A DNA stretch of 64,000 nucleotides, taken from the NCBI RefSeq assembly GCF_006345815.1, contig NZ_VCIG01000043.1:62001-126000 (forward strand), in the 5' to 3' direction. A model generated the notes under the pieces. The model did no database searches. It was not told the DNA's origin and saw only the letters and a list, made by a program, of their open reading frames with translations. Position 1 is the first letter of the stretch. Every line of letters begins with the position of its first letter. The stretch is from Ochrobactrum sp. CGA5 (lineage in GTDB: Bacteria; Pseudomonadota; Alphaproteobacteria; Rhizobiales; Rhizobiaceae). Below are positions 11,413 to 14,306 of the stretch, piece by piece. The position numbers and the translations under genes are program-made.

Positions 11413-12957
11413 TTACTCGGCGGCTGCACCCTCTTCCGCCAGATCATCCGGCGCATTCGGGTCGCCCGGTGCAGTCTCACAGCCGAGGTCAGGGAAATTG
11501 ACGATGCGCAGTCCCTTGAAATCATTGCGGACAACCAGAAGCCCTCGCTCTTCAAAATAAGTCAGCAGACGCCGTGCGCGGCTGAACGAATGCGTGCCAT
11601 AGGCACGTGCAAGCGCCGCATCGGACGGACAAGGGGCGCCAGTCACCGCCGCCTGCGCCACAATCAGGAACACGCCCTGTACGTCATCGGTGAGGCTTTC
11701 CGAGAGAGCAAGCGCCTGCTGCCACGTCTCGCCGCTTGCAACATCGCCTTCGATACTGGCCTGCGCCACTGCCAGCCTGCGCCGGAACGCTGGCAGCGCC
11801 AATGGCTCGCCTGGCACGCGATGGATGCGGCAGCGCACAAGAAAGTCCTGATAAAGAACCGCGACCGATCGGAACGAGGCTTCTGGATCATCAACAATCT
11901 CGCGCATGACCTTTTCAAGAAGCTCATCGCGTTCGGCTTCCACAATGCCCGGAAACAAAGGTTCCTGTGCGAGTTCGGCTTCGGGCTTGGGTTTTGCCAC
12001 CTGCGCCAGGATTTCCGACGTCGATGGCGGCGGCGGGGGCGGTGGCGCTCTGCGCACGGGGGTGCGGATTTCCTGCGGCGCTGGCGTGAAGATGAGATCG
12101 AGCGGATCTTCCGGCGCATCGGGCAGCGGCATCAGCTTGGGCGAAGAAGACCGCGCCGAGGTTTCCACTTTGCCAATCTTGATCGGCAAAGGGCGGCGCG
12201 ACAATGCAGGGCCAAGCGCCACGAAATGTCCACGCTGCAAATCGCGGAACATTTCAGCTTGGCGGCGCTCCATGCCCAGAAGATCGGCTGCGCGGGCCAT
12301 GTCGATGTCAAGGAATGTGCGCCCCATGAGGAAGTTGGAGGCTTCAGCGGCAACGTTCTTGGCAAGCTTCGCCAGTCGCTGCGTGGCGATGACACCCGCT
12401 AGCCCGCGTTTTCGTCCGCGACACATGAGATTGGTCATTGCCCCCAGCGACAGCTTACGGGCTTCATCCGACACTTCGCCAGCGGCAGCAGGCGCAAAAA
12501 GCTGCGCCTCATCCACGACCACGAGCATCGGATACCAATAGTCGCGCTCGGCATCGAAAAGGCCACCGAGAAAAGCCGCGGCTGAGCGCATCTGCTGCTC
12601 GACGTCGAGACCTTCCAGATTAAGCACCACCGAAACGCGGTGCTGACGAATGCGTCCAGCGATACGGGTCAGCTCGGCCTCGGTGCGGGCGGCATCGACA
12701 ACAACATGGCCGTAAACATCGGCCAGCGTGACGAAATCGCCTTCGGGATCGACGATGCATTGCTGCACCCATTGCGCGCTCTGTTCCAGAAGGCGGCGCA
12801 GAAGATGCGACTTGCCGGAGCCGGAATTGCCCTGCACAAGCAGACGTGTGGCGAGAAGCTCCTCAAGATCAAGCATGGCCTGCTTGCCACCGCCAAGCGC
12901 TGCCGCCGAGGCAGAACCGCTTCCCGTGACAGAACCCATGTCGATACCGACCTGCAT
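11413..12957 (-). CDS. HerA/DUF87-type ATPase with C-terminal extension
   Basis: The 514-residue P-loop ATPase has Walker A GNSGSGKS at residues 43-50 and Walker B MLVVVDEAQ near 144-152. GVIATQRLAKLAKNVAAEASN matches the sensor/arginine region of HerA-like ATPases. After about residue 265 come a Pro-rich linker and a helical C-terminal region. No NurA-type nuclease is adjacent. Start ATG 12957 is chosen because AAGGAGG lies 4 bases upstream; upstream in-frame codons have nothing comparable. It may act in DNA translocation or repair, or be a widespread alphaproteobacterial ATPase of unknown role. Confidence 0.85.
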   Translation of the reverse strand: MQVGIDMGSVTGSGSASAAALGGGKQAMLDLEELLATRLLVQGNSGSGKSHLLRRLLEQSAQWVQQCIVDPEGDFVTLADVYGHVVVDAARTEAELTRIAGRIRQHRVSVVLNLEGLDVEQQMRSAAAFLGGLFDAERDYWYPMLVVVDEAQLFAPAAAGEVSDEARKLSLGAMTNLMCRGRKRGLAGVIATQRLAKLAKNVAAEASNFLMGRTFLDIDMARAADLLGMERRQAEMFRDLQRGHFVALGPALSRRPLPIKIGKVETSARSSSPKLMPLPDAPEDPLDLIFTPAPQEIRTPVRRAPPPPPPPSTSEILAQVAKPKPEAELAQEPLFPGIVEAERDELLEKVMREIVDDPEASFRSVAVLYQDFLVRCRIHRVPGEPLALPAFRRRLAVAQASIEGDVASGETWQQALALSESLTDDVQGVFLIVAQAAVTGAPCPSDAALARAYGTHSFSRARRLLTYFEERGLLVVRNDFKGLRIVNFPDLGCETAPGDPNAPDDLAEEGAAAE

Positions 12958-13228
12958 CTCGCCTCCTTGATTCAACATTACAGGAACAGACGACTCGCGC
13001 AGAAAACCCGCCAGTCGATCAGGCACCCGCTTAACACTTTTGCGGCTGTCATTGCCACCCGTTAAGACAAATGCCCACAGATGCCGGGCAGTAGATTGCA
13101 ACCTGAAGTTTTGATAGCAATCCTGTCAGGGGGCAAAAGCAGCTAGCGTCCAGCAAGCGGGCGCGTCGGGGAGGATGAGCCGCTCCGACCGTGGCAAAGG
13201 CTTTGCCCTCTATTCGGAGGTGAATTGA

Positions 13229-13318
13229 ATGTGGTTAATCCCCATCATATTCACGCTTAGATTAAAGAAAACCCGCACCGGCTGGCAAGCTACAGTGCGG
13301 GTACAGCTCTTTATCTGA
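13229..13318 (+). CDS. Candidate 29-residue small protein (possible type I toxin)
   Basis: An ORF of 29 codons starts with ATG 13229, five bases after GGAGGTGA, an almost complete anti-16S match. The peptide begins MWLIPIIFTLRLKKTR: a short hydrophobic stretch followed by basic residues, and it ends in VRVQLFI. The leader upstream can fold into several stems, for example GGCAAAG/CTTTGCC near 13193-13207. The 3' half is covered by a convergent antisense RNA (13262-13352). Size, composition and layout resemble type I toxins. I do not recognise a known family, and translation is inferred from the ribosome binding site only. Confidence 0.5.
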   Translation: MWLIPIIFTLRLKKTRTGWQATVRVQLFI

Positions 13319-13352
13319 GTACACGTTAGCTGGAGTTCACGCTTCAGCTACC
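13262..13352 (-). ncRNA. Candidate antisense sRNA over the 3' half of the small ORF
   Basis: Read on the minus strand there is a start region near 13352, a hairpin of TAGCTGAAG with CTCCAGCTA around a 6-base loop (13350-13327), an unstructured stretch, then an intrinsic terminator. The terminator is a perfect 8-bp stem ACCCGCAC/GTGCGGGT (13302-13271) followed by TTTCTTTAA. Length would be about 85-90 nt. Two stem-loops and a promoter at the right distance make transcription likely. It may be an antitoxin for the small ORF or an independent trans-acting sRNA. Confidence 0.6.
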
Positions 13353-13358
13353 GATCCG

Positions 13359-13387
13359 AATATAGGCCATCGGGATCACTTTTCCAA
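13359..13387 (-). promoter_or_regulatory. Sigma-70-like promoter for the antisense sRNA
   Basis: On the minus strand: TTGGAA (13387-13382), a 17-base spacer, then TATATT (13364-13359). The -10 matches consensus at 5 of 6 positions and the -35 at 4 of 6. Predicted initiation is near 13352. Confidence 0.55.
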
Positions 13388-13559
13388 CTATCGCCCGTCA
13401 GCCTCCGTGTGAGGCAAACCCAAAAAACTTGCACCGCCGCGCGCTATGCTCTATAGCACCGCCATCCGCGTAGACACCCTTGGAGGCAACGCGGAATGGA
13501 GCGGTCCGGTCTTTCACCTTGTGACAGACGATACGGGCTGTTTCATGTCGTTTGTTGAA

Positions 13560-13604
13560 GCATGGTCCCGAAAAGTGGAAACCGGTTTTCGGACAAGATC
13601 ATGC
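13560..13604. repeat. Rhizobial-type palindromic intergenic repeat (copy 2)
   Basis: A palindrome beginning GCATGGTCCCG and ending GATCATGC shares the core AAAAGTGGAAACCGGTTTTC with the copy at 9978-10023. It lies 49 bases before rplY, in its probable 5' leader. Confidence 0.75.
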
Positions 13605-13652
13605 GCAGATTATACAGCGGGCGACACTCCAGTAACATCGAAAGGAAATGCC

Positions 13653-14276
13653 ATGAGCGAGACTTACGTGCTCAAGGCCGATCTGCGTACCCGGGTTGGT
13701 AAGGGGTCCTCCCGCGAACTGCGTCGCAACGGCCAGATTCCTGCAGTCATCTATGGCGACAAGCAGGAACCCCTCGCAATCGCTGTCTCCTACAAGGAGA
13801 TCTTCTACAAGATTCATGGCGGTGGCTTTAAGACCACTGTTGCCACGATCGAAGTGGACGGCAAGAAGATTCAGGTCCTCCCGAAGGACTACCAGCTGGA
13901 TCCGGTCCGTGACTTCCCGCAGCATGTCGACTTCCTGCGCGTTTCCGCGAAGTCGGTCGTCCACGTAAATGTTCCGGTTCACTTCAAAAACGAAGAAGCA
14001 GCTCCGGGCATCAAGCGCGGTGGCGTTCTCAACATCGTTCGTCACGACGTTGAACTTATCGTTCCGGCCAATGCAATCCCGGAAGCGCTTGAAATTGACC
14101 TGACCGGTCTTGAGATCGGCGACTCGGTTCACATTTCGGCCGTTAAGCTGCCAAAGGGCGCAACGCCCGCCATTCAGGATCGCGACTTCACCATCGCCAC
14201 CATTGCTGCTCCTGCCGGCCTGAAGTCGGAAGAAAACGCAGAAGGCGCTGCAGAAGAAGCCAAGGACGGCGAATAA
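13653..14276 (+). CDS. rplY: 50S ribosomal protein L25 (Ctc/TL5 long form)
   Basis: The 207-residue protein binds 5S rRNA. The N-terminal L25 domain begins [20 protein letters not shown] and includes REL with [10 protein letters not shown]; the C-terminal TL5/Ctc beta domain (near residues 95-190) contains [20 protein letters not shown]. The Glu/Ala-rich acidic tail is typical of alphaproteobacterial members. ATG 13653 is preceded by AAAGGAA. The gene lies 30 bases before pth, the usual rplY-pth arrangement. Confidence 0.96.
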
Positions 14277-14306
14277 TCGCTTGCCGCATTTTGGGGGCTC
14301 TGAACC

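Follow-up and report, generated by a model that had tools for sequence, protein, structure and literature searches.

We analysed a 64,000-nucleotide (nt) stretch of DNA from Ochrobactrum sp. CGA5 (contig NZ_VCIG01000043.1, positions 62,001 to 126,000), hereafter the window, in which a first-pass annotation had pointed to a candidate type I toxin-antitoxin (TA) locus. Comparison with relatives strengthens this reading through coding selection and + strand RNA structure: the locus is quite probably a mobile type I TA-like module, controlled like hok/Sok and aapA/IsoA. Its family is apparently undescribed and has an unusual predicted toxin fold. Comparative data support the predicted structures and strands of both RNAs, the antisense promoter, the coding role of the ORF, and the mobility and spread of the module in many copies. 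The parts of the module, in window positions, are:

13091-13415, no strand assigned: whole module, ends approximate; present in the window, missing from the same site in relatives
13125-13221, + strand: structured 5′ leader with four stems and a conserved AGCA(G); matched by covariance model R1 (G000:C37:75125-75221, 89 bits)
13211-13218, + strand: 5′ arm of a long-range helix, TATTCGGA, covering the Shine-Dalgarno sequence (minimum free energy fold, covariation)
13216-13223, + strand: Shine-Dalgarno sequence (SD), GGAGGTGA, read directly
13220-13254, + strand: start-codon hairpin GTGAAT/ATTCAC around ATG 13229 (minimum free energy fold, arm permutation)
13229-13318, + strand: open reading frame (ORF) of 29 amino acids (aa), MWLIPIIFTLRLKKTRTGWQATVRVQLFI, candidate toxin (selection; profile match at expectation value E 1.6e-15)
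13264-13302, − strand: intrinsic terminator of the antisense RNA, within the ORF (stem 13271-13278/13295-13302)
13264-13352, − strand: predicted antisense RNA of ~89 nt, candidate antitoxin (from promoter and terminator positions)
13325-13352, + strand: 3′ hairpin H2, past the stop codon (core-stem G-U bias)
13355-13362, + strand: 3′ arm of the long-range helix (anti-SD), TCCGAATA (minimum free energy pairing with 13211-13218)
13359-13387, − strand: antisense promoter, TTGGAA (13387-13382), 17 bases, TATATT (13364-13359) (promoter scan, alignment)

Coding of the peptide and structure of the two RNAs

We gathered 133 distinct copies of the module, a few of them decayed. Score and length limits (passed by 125 of the 133) and removal of redundancy left 71 copies, and 23 further copies were held out. 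Conservation across copies extends to the ORF, its leader, the two hairpins and the promoter on the minus strand. In the window the ORF reads from ATG 13229 to TGA 13316-13318 (29 codons) behind its SD, as first described; an SD-like word is found in 128 of the 133 distinct copies and the ATG in 129. Selection was estimated on 114 copies of 29 aa, giving 53 independent pairs. Over codons 2-12, which essentially lie beyond the antisense RNA, the ratio of nonsynonymous to synonymous substitution rates (dN/dS) is 0.39 in the ORF frame against 0.71 and 2.30 in the other two, and the corresponding ratio of polymorphisms (pN/pS), 0.45 (bootstrap 0.36-0.56), is again below the other frames. Over codons 2-29, dN/dS is 0.47 against 1.02 and 1.60. 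The ORF frame is thus under purifying selection, and from this selection we infer its translation.

The leader, whose stems had been noticed at first pass, forms a four-stem domain that ends immediately upstream of the SD. In 29 copies, 21 of its 23 pairs change on both sides, and its covariation score is 0.540 compared to 0.252 for shuffled alignments (0 of 500 shuffles as high), for a structure that leans towards these sequences. Paired cells amount to 90.3% versus 75.8% after shuffling, and two-sided changes to 111 cells versus 28.3. Two groups of unpaired bases are conserved, AGCA ahead of the second stem (with no or almost no variation in the 29 copies) and GAT in the third stem, and look like a putative binding site. 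A later alignment comprised 64 of 80 leaders, picked for AGCAG.

The leader domain was found almost only ahead of this peptide in 55 genome searches with the leader model. A search of 35 genomes of the genus, blind to the peptide, returned 26 places in 16 genomes. All 26 are followed by a peptide match, 23 of them within 15 bases and three at 100-200 bases, in copies with insertions or decay (G004, G006, G029); conversely, 3 of 29 peptide matches in the genus are without leader, all decayed. The second search covered 20 chosen genomes, 16 with known peptides and 4 without, and some of the copies searched had helped build the model. Here 97 of 99 leader matches have a peptide at most 140 bases downstream on the same strand (median gap 7 nt), 8 of 105 peptide matches are without leader, and the four peptide-negative genomes gave neither leader nor peptide match.

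Two + strand structures may occlude translation initiation. For the hairpin around the start codon, comparison of own with permuted arms gave 0/5000 (50 of 71 copies used; control arm 818/5000), and 4/5000 in the held-out set (14 of 23 copies used; control arm 701/5000); own arms were better than those of nearest relatives in 62 of 94 copies (p 2.4e-5). The second structure joins the SD to the bases that follow H2, usually ACTCC. The pairing of own arms (−10.29) exceeds that of permuted arms (−9.31), with 0 of 5000 permutations as strong (hold-out 35/5000), in a permutation that ignores relatedness; set against the 3′ arms of the five nearest relatives, own pairing is favoured as well (p 0.0014). 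Of 90 copies, 67 have a minimum free energy fold that pairs the SD with sequence 3′ of the stop codon. The 3′ end of the mRNA is thus predicted to pair with the SD, as in the control of hok and aapA. The folding check proposed at first pass gave z −5.44 relative to shuffles for the + strand of 13115-13362.

H2 itself carries a strand signature. Its core stem holds 75 G-U pairs on the + strand against 2 A·C (71 copies), and 18 against 0 in the 23 held-out copies. In 52 of 71 copies the + strand is the one preferred by folding energy, and the loop is GAAA in 22 of 71. The window copy has one mismatch, T13326/C13351.

On the − strand, the TTGGAA-N17-TATATT promoter reported at first pass is present and could be positioned in 85 of 94 copies, aligned on an anchor GGAGT. 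These copies share TT(G/T), 17 bases and TATATT, directed towards the ORF, with little conserved between; in 40 of the 85 the best −10 hexamer has a common first base, and in 15 it begins four bases further. The terminator stem, ACCCGCAC (13271-13278) and GTGCGGGT (13295-13302), is followed on the minus strand by TTTCTTT. It does lie within the ORF, over codons 15-25, hence mid-ORF rather than in the 3′ half to which it was originally assigned. Its pairs are G-U only on the − strand in 28 cases and only on the + strand in 5 (71 copies; 18 and 3 in the 23 held-out copies), and of 91 copies, 82 have at least 4 T in the 8 bases past the stem on the − side, compared to 23 on the + side. A scan of 12400-14300 gave two overlapping promoter-like sites at the module (9 of 12), where 0.7 would be expected in the whole region. 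Terminator-like sites numbered 8 against 2.1 expected, every one of them on the minus strand. These matches are weak by themselves; taken together with the relatives, they appear far beyond chance. From the conserved, selected promoter and terminator we predict an antisense transcript with a median length of 91 nt (91 copies). Complementary to H2 and to the second half of the ORF, it would just touch the margin of the anti-SD and would not reach the SD.

Conservation of a − strand promoter and terminator would also suit a trans-acting small RNA (sRNA) with a chance ORF opposite, the alternative raised at first pass. As a whole explanation it fails, because the ORF frame is selected outside the antisense RNA (codons 2-12) and because the + strand has structures of its own, the leader, H2 and the pairing of the 3′ end with the SD; the retention of SD and ATG noted above speaks against it too. 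We consider a chance ORF highly improbable. It is possible that the antisense RNA of a TA-like module acts on other targets, including paralogous copies.

The residues were examined in 91 of 94 peptides, picked for having TR. Hydrophobic/polar alternation flanks a basic turn with the invariant TR, followed by W. This pattern describes the peptide better than the order 'hydrophobic then basic' first proposed. Mean net charge is +4.7. Peak hydropathy over 17 residues is 1.19, and none of the 91 peptides reaches 1.6, the threshold for a membrane segment. The beta moment exceeds the alpha moment in 84 of 91 peptides in the first half and in 91 of 91 in the second. An AlphaFold model of a 31-aa homologue (L062) is a two-strand hairpin with strands 3-13 and 20-30 (mean predicted local distance difference test, pLDDT, 79.1; predicted template modelling score, pTM, 0.30). 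In these features the peptide resembles an amphipathic, cationic beta-hairpin and not a membrane helix.

Distribution, mobility and insertion site

The searches among relatives proposed at first pass, at peptide and nucleotide level, revealed a family dispersed in Hyphomicrobiales. A DNA search of 60 genomes, including the window's own, found 33 places in 17 genomes. These lie at different loci, no genome having more than five, and some of them are pieces of a single copy. Of 30 loci, 26 were aligned; L016 and L017 (weak) and L025 and L026 (second pieces of other copies) were left out. Profile searches, all including the window genome, matched 71 of the 297 genomes drawn from the family Rhizobiaceae, in 31 of its 109 sampled genera (E ≤0.01), 21 of 397 genomes drawn from the order (E ≤1e-4) and 1 of 289 drawn from the class, the window's own. 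As these searches used different profiles and E limits, their rates should not be compared directly. A single copy is present in the window genome, and per-genome matches reach 13 among the matches listed in the family search.

Translated searches at E ≤10 matched 39 plasmid records, 38 of which cover at least 80% of the peptide, with carriers in Sinorhizobium, Agrobacterium, Roseibium, Ochrobactrum, Ancylobacter and others. They also matched 18 phage records, including Ochrobactrum and Rhizobium phages; four Escherichia/Salmonella phage matches at E 10 are probably chance. The peptide was further found in 8 viral contigs, and 21 loci lie in named genomes, including Falsochrobactrum, Ochrobactrum and Brucella species, Phyllobacterium, Gellertiella and Labrenzia. 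No feature is listed beneath 38 of the 39 best plasmid places (the PLSDB gene table being incomplete) or beneath 12 of the 18 phage places; 4 of the remaining 6 are the probable chance matches. Together, these results show a dispersed, mobile module on chromosomes, plasmids and phages of Hyphomicrobiales.

Tandem copies occur 300-400 bases apart at L044 and, among the matches listed, in several genomes, and 1.1-1.3 kb apart at L024 and L033. We also observed arrays of at least three modules with a period of ~300-370 bases (G323:C6, G126:C2, G275:C18, G334:C33, G141:C1). A lone module, with leader and peptide match, is present at G129:C1:265456-265648, in a one-contig genome of the same family; at 1.9 Mb this genome is far smaller than the other carriers among the matches listed.

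Some copies are decaying. L012 and L029 have insertions in leader or ORF and the 5′ half of L011 is replaced; all three retain H2 and the antisense −10, which the decayed L027 does not. In five decayed copies of the genus, nothing is left of the peptide ahead of residue ~8-11; three of the five are in the alignment (L011, L027, L029). That decayed copies may keep the antitoxin side is a point of little weight, because detection favours the C-terminal motif.

The site near rplY could be compared in 10 of 30 loci: one is filled (L190) and nine are empty (L191, L192, L193, L200, L201, L203, L205, L207, L213). Three of the empty loci, L191, L192 and L193, share 99% identity with the window across the 321 bases at the rplY start that were searched. 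In the closest empty sites, a shared segment ending in ...GATGCCGGGCA (at 13090) is followed by ~20 unalignable bases and then by AAAAAACTTGC (from ~13422). Since the flanks meet within ~20 bases in the empty relatives, the unit corresponds to ~13091-13415, including leader, ORF and antisense promoter. This bears on the idea that the element is a leader or attenuator controlling rplY, which lies ~335 bases downstream, or another neighbour. With rplY in place in all ten aligned relatives and the module missing in nine, and with copies occupying other contexts elsewhere, we give this explanation practically no credence, even less than a chance ORF.

Two further features lie between the module and rplY. 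A hairpin CCGCGTAGACACCCTTGGAGGCAACGCGG at 13445-13520, ~150 bases before rplY, is nearly invariant in the aligned relatives, with a compensatory CCACGT/ACGTGG in L207 and no credible Rfam match; it is a candidate bL25 (rplY) mRNA leader. A palindromic repeat at 13559-13604, CCCGAAAAGTGG...CCGGTTTTCGGACAAGATCATGC, which we take to be a dispersed repeat, resembles, below threshold, parts of two Brucella sRNA families of Rfam, BASRCI408 (13546-13616) and BASRCI27 (13560-13604); both were set aside as matches to a repeat beyond the module.

Comparison with databases and known systems

The view that peptide and RNA fall outside known families held: no credible match was obtained in Rfam, Pfam or NCBIfam. 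Rfam gave nothing at gathering score in the window, and a permissive search gave four matches in 12950-13660, none on the module. On the modules of relatives, Rfam gave weak overlaps only, far under gathering scores (MIR1432, RF_site5 at L034 and CsrC at L036). Pfam matched 0 of 15 peptides (best E 0.035 in a wider set, 2 of 46), NCBIfam gave a best E of 4.4 for 15 members, PADLOC matched 0 of 46, and PDB held no match to the peptide. Weak matches were obtained to two PHROG families without a name (best E 0.011 and 0.015).

In the literature searched, which lay outside subscription papers and supplements, neither the peptide nor a type I TA family in Hyphomicrobiales is described among the matches listed, and six heptamers of the peptide have zero occurrences. 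Of two small-protein papers, PMC10117765 has in its main text no word beginning with 'toxin' or 'toxic', and PMC5521070, which includes S. meliloti, names no such peptide in the text searched.

The counter-transcribed RNA (ctRNA) of repABC replicons was considered, as some plasmid copies adjoin rep or partition genes: the L035 module lies 0.6 kb upstream of repC, and those of L033 and L036 downstream of a ParB/RepB-family gene. It was set aside because no such gene is annotated around L031, L032, L034, L037 or the window site. The one match to ctRNA_p42d is weak and upstream of the module (L062 2309-2344, E 0.63). SmelA075/SmelA099, multicopy Rhizobiales sRNAs, have CCUCCUCCC hairpins according to the accessible text of PMC3927594 and so belong to a different family.

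Among characterised type I systems, Ldr/Rdl, Ibs/Sib and other tandem chromosomal loci likewise have short ORFs in repeated loci with antisense RNAs; their RNA anatomy differs from that of the module. Hok is a membrane peptide, and hok has an overlapping mok frame. Unlike hok/Sok, the module has a predicted beta-hairpin of 29 aa and a four-stem leader, and its predicted antisense RNA starts in the 3′ untranslated region and ends inside the ORF. We know of no large conserved leader domain in aapA/IsoA of Helicobacter pylori, a system of different bacteria. Likenesses are nonetheless close. The hok/Sok systems (plasmid R1 and chromosomal homologues) resemble the module as predicted here: they have an antisense RNA, a folded full-length peptide mRNA that hides the SD and needs 3′ processing, and plasmid as well as chromosomal copies, several of their chromosomal ones being inactivated by insertion elements (partly general background, partly the accessible text of PMC6733600). 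From the same text, aapA/IsoA resembles the predicted module by its toxin of ~30 aa, several copies per chromosome, a cis antisense RNA and long-distance 5′-3′ pairing that sequesters the SD; it also uses transient SD-sequestering hairpins, and its translation needs 3′ truncation (PMC6733600). AapA1 has an alpha-helical transmembrane segment, and LdrD and IbsC are alpha-helical, unlike the peptide predicted here (PMC8309996, in the part available).

Proposed mechanism and its weighing

We propose that the + strand would give a small mRNA with the structured leader, the SD, the cationic beta-hairpin peptide of 29 aa and the 3′ hairpin. The finished mRNA would fold back, its 3′ end pairing with the SD and the local hairpin hiding the start codon, so that the full-length message would be silent. 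A separate downstream promoter would produce the ~90-nt antisense RNA on the − strand, stopping at the terminator within the ORF; this RNA could form a duplex with the 3′ hairpin and with the ORF's second half, which would be cut or would block translation. Upon loss of the antisense RNA, for example with a carrier plasmid or phage, 3′ trimming would free the SD, the peptide would be made and the cell would arrest. Of these steps, transcription, 3′ trimming, duplex cleavage, toxicity and its target are what we infer, toxicity from the architecture and from the mobile, multicopy distribution.

Several observations weigh against this scheme. No + strand promoter conserved in position emerged from 85 of 94 copies, and the scan of 12400-14300 gave no + strand terminator. 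The AUG is locally paired in the minimum free energy fold of 60 of 90 copies; the SD is left unpaired with the 3′ untranslated region in 23 of 90, and its pairing with the own 3′ arm is superior to that with the arms of nearest relatives in only 58 of 94. The H2 stem-core count was chosen after the data had been seen and then tested on held-out copies; counted with the stem uncapped (94 versus 81), H2 has no strand bias. Folding energy of the terminator region does not favour the − strand (29 of 71, p 0.23). Since codons 2-9 lie within the start-codon hairpin, they are constrained by RNA structure as well as by coding. As the predicted antisense RNA misses the SD, it would have to act by cleavage or against elongating ribosomes. 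Finally, the alpha-helical membrane segment that is a feature of characterised membrane-associated type I toxins was not found in the 91 peptides; the cytosolic type I toxins RalR and SymE are likewise without one (PMC8309996, in the part available).

The last point also bears on a reading in which the small peptide is translated and antisense-controlled without being a self-toxin, for instance a phage or plasmid regulator, or a superinfection-exclusion or host-takeover peptide needing tight silencing. Its difference from known membrane type I toxins and the copies in phages and plasmids agree with such a role, and the anatomy suits any small mRNA under tight silencing. Against it stand the usual hallmarks of type I TA systems, namely copies arrayed in tandem, chromosomal copies whose contexts are unrelated, and fold-back onto the SD combined with an antisense RNA, to which the decayed L011 and L029, with their retained H2 and antisense −10, add the minor argument already discussed (L027 being the counter-example). 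We regard a non-toxin peptide as rather unlikely, although by far less so than a chance ORF or an rplY leader, and retain the mobile type I TA-like module as the probable reading.

A bolder form of the TA-like reading, which we put forward tentatively and with somewhat less than even confidence, is that of a new type I TA class combining a beta-hairpin toxin with an aptamer-like four-stem leader, which may sense a signal or protein and gate release. The family could then rank among the leading RNA-controlled modules for addiction and phage exclusion on the plasmids, phages and chromosomes of Hyphomicrobiales.

If the TA-like reading is true, a family that occurs in 31 of the 109 genera sampled from one bacterial family would fill a gap, type I TA systems and rhizobia being rarely mentioned together in the literature searched. 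A toxin fold of the beta-hairpin type and a new conserved RNA domain would become available for study, small intergenic islands missed by annotation would be explained, and the plasmid and phage biology of rhizobia would gain a testable addiction module.
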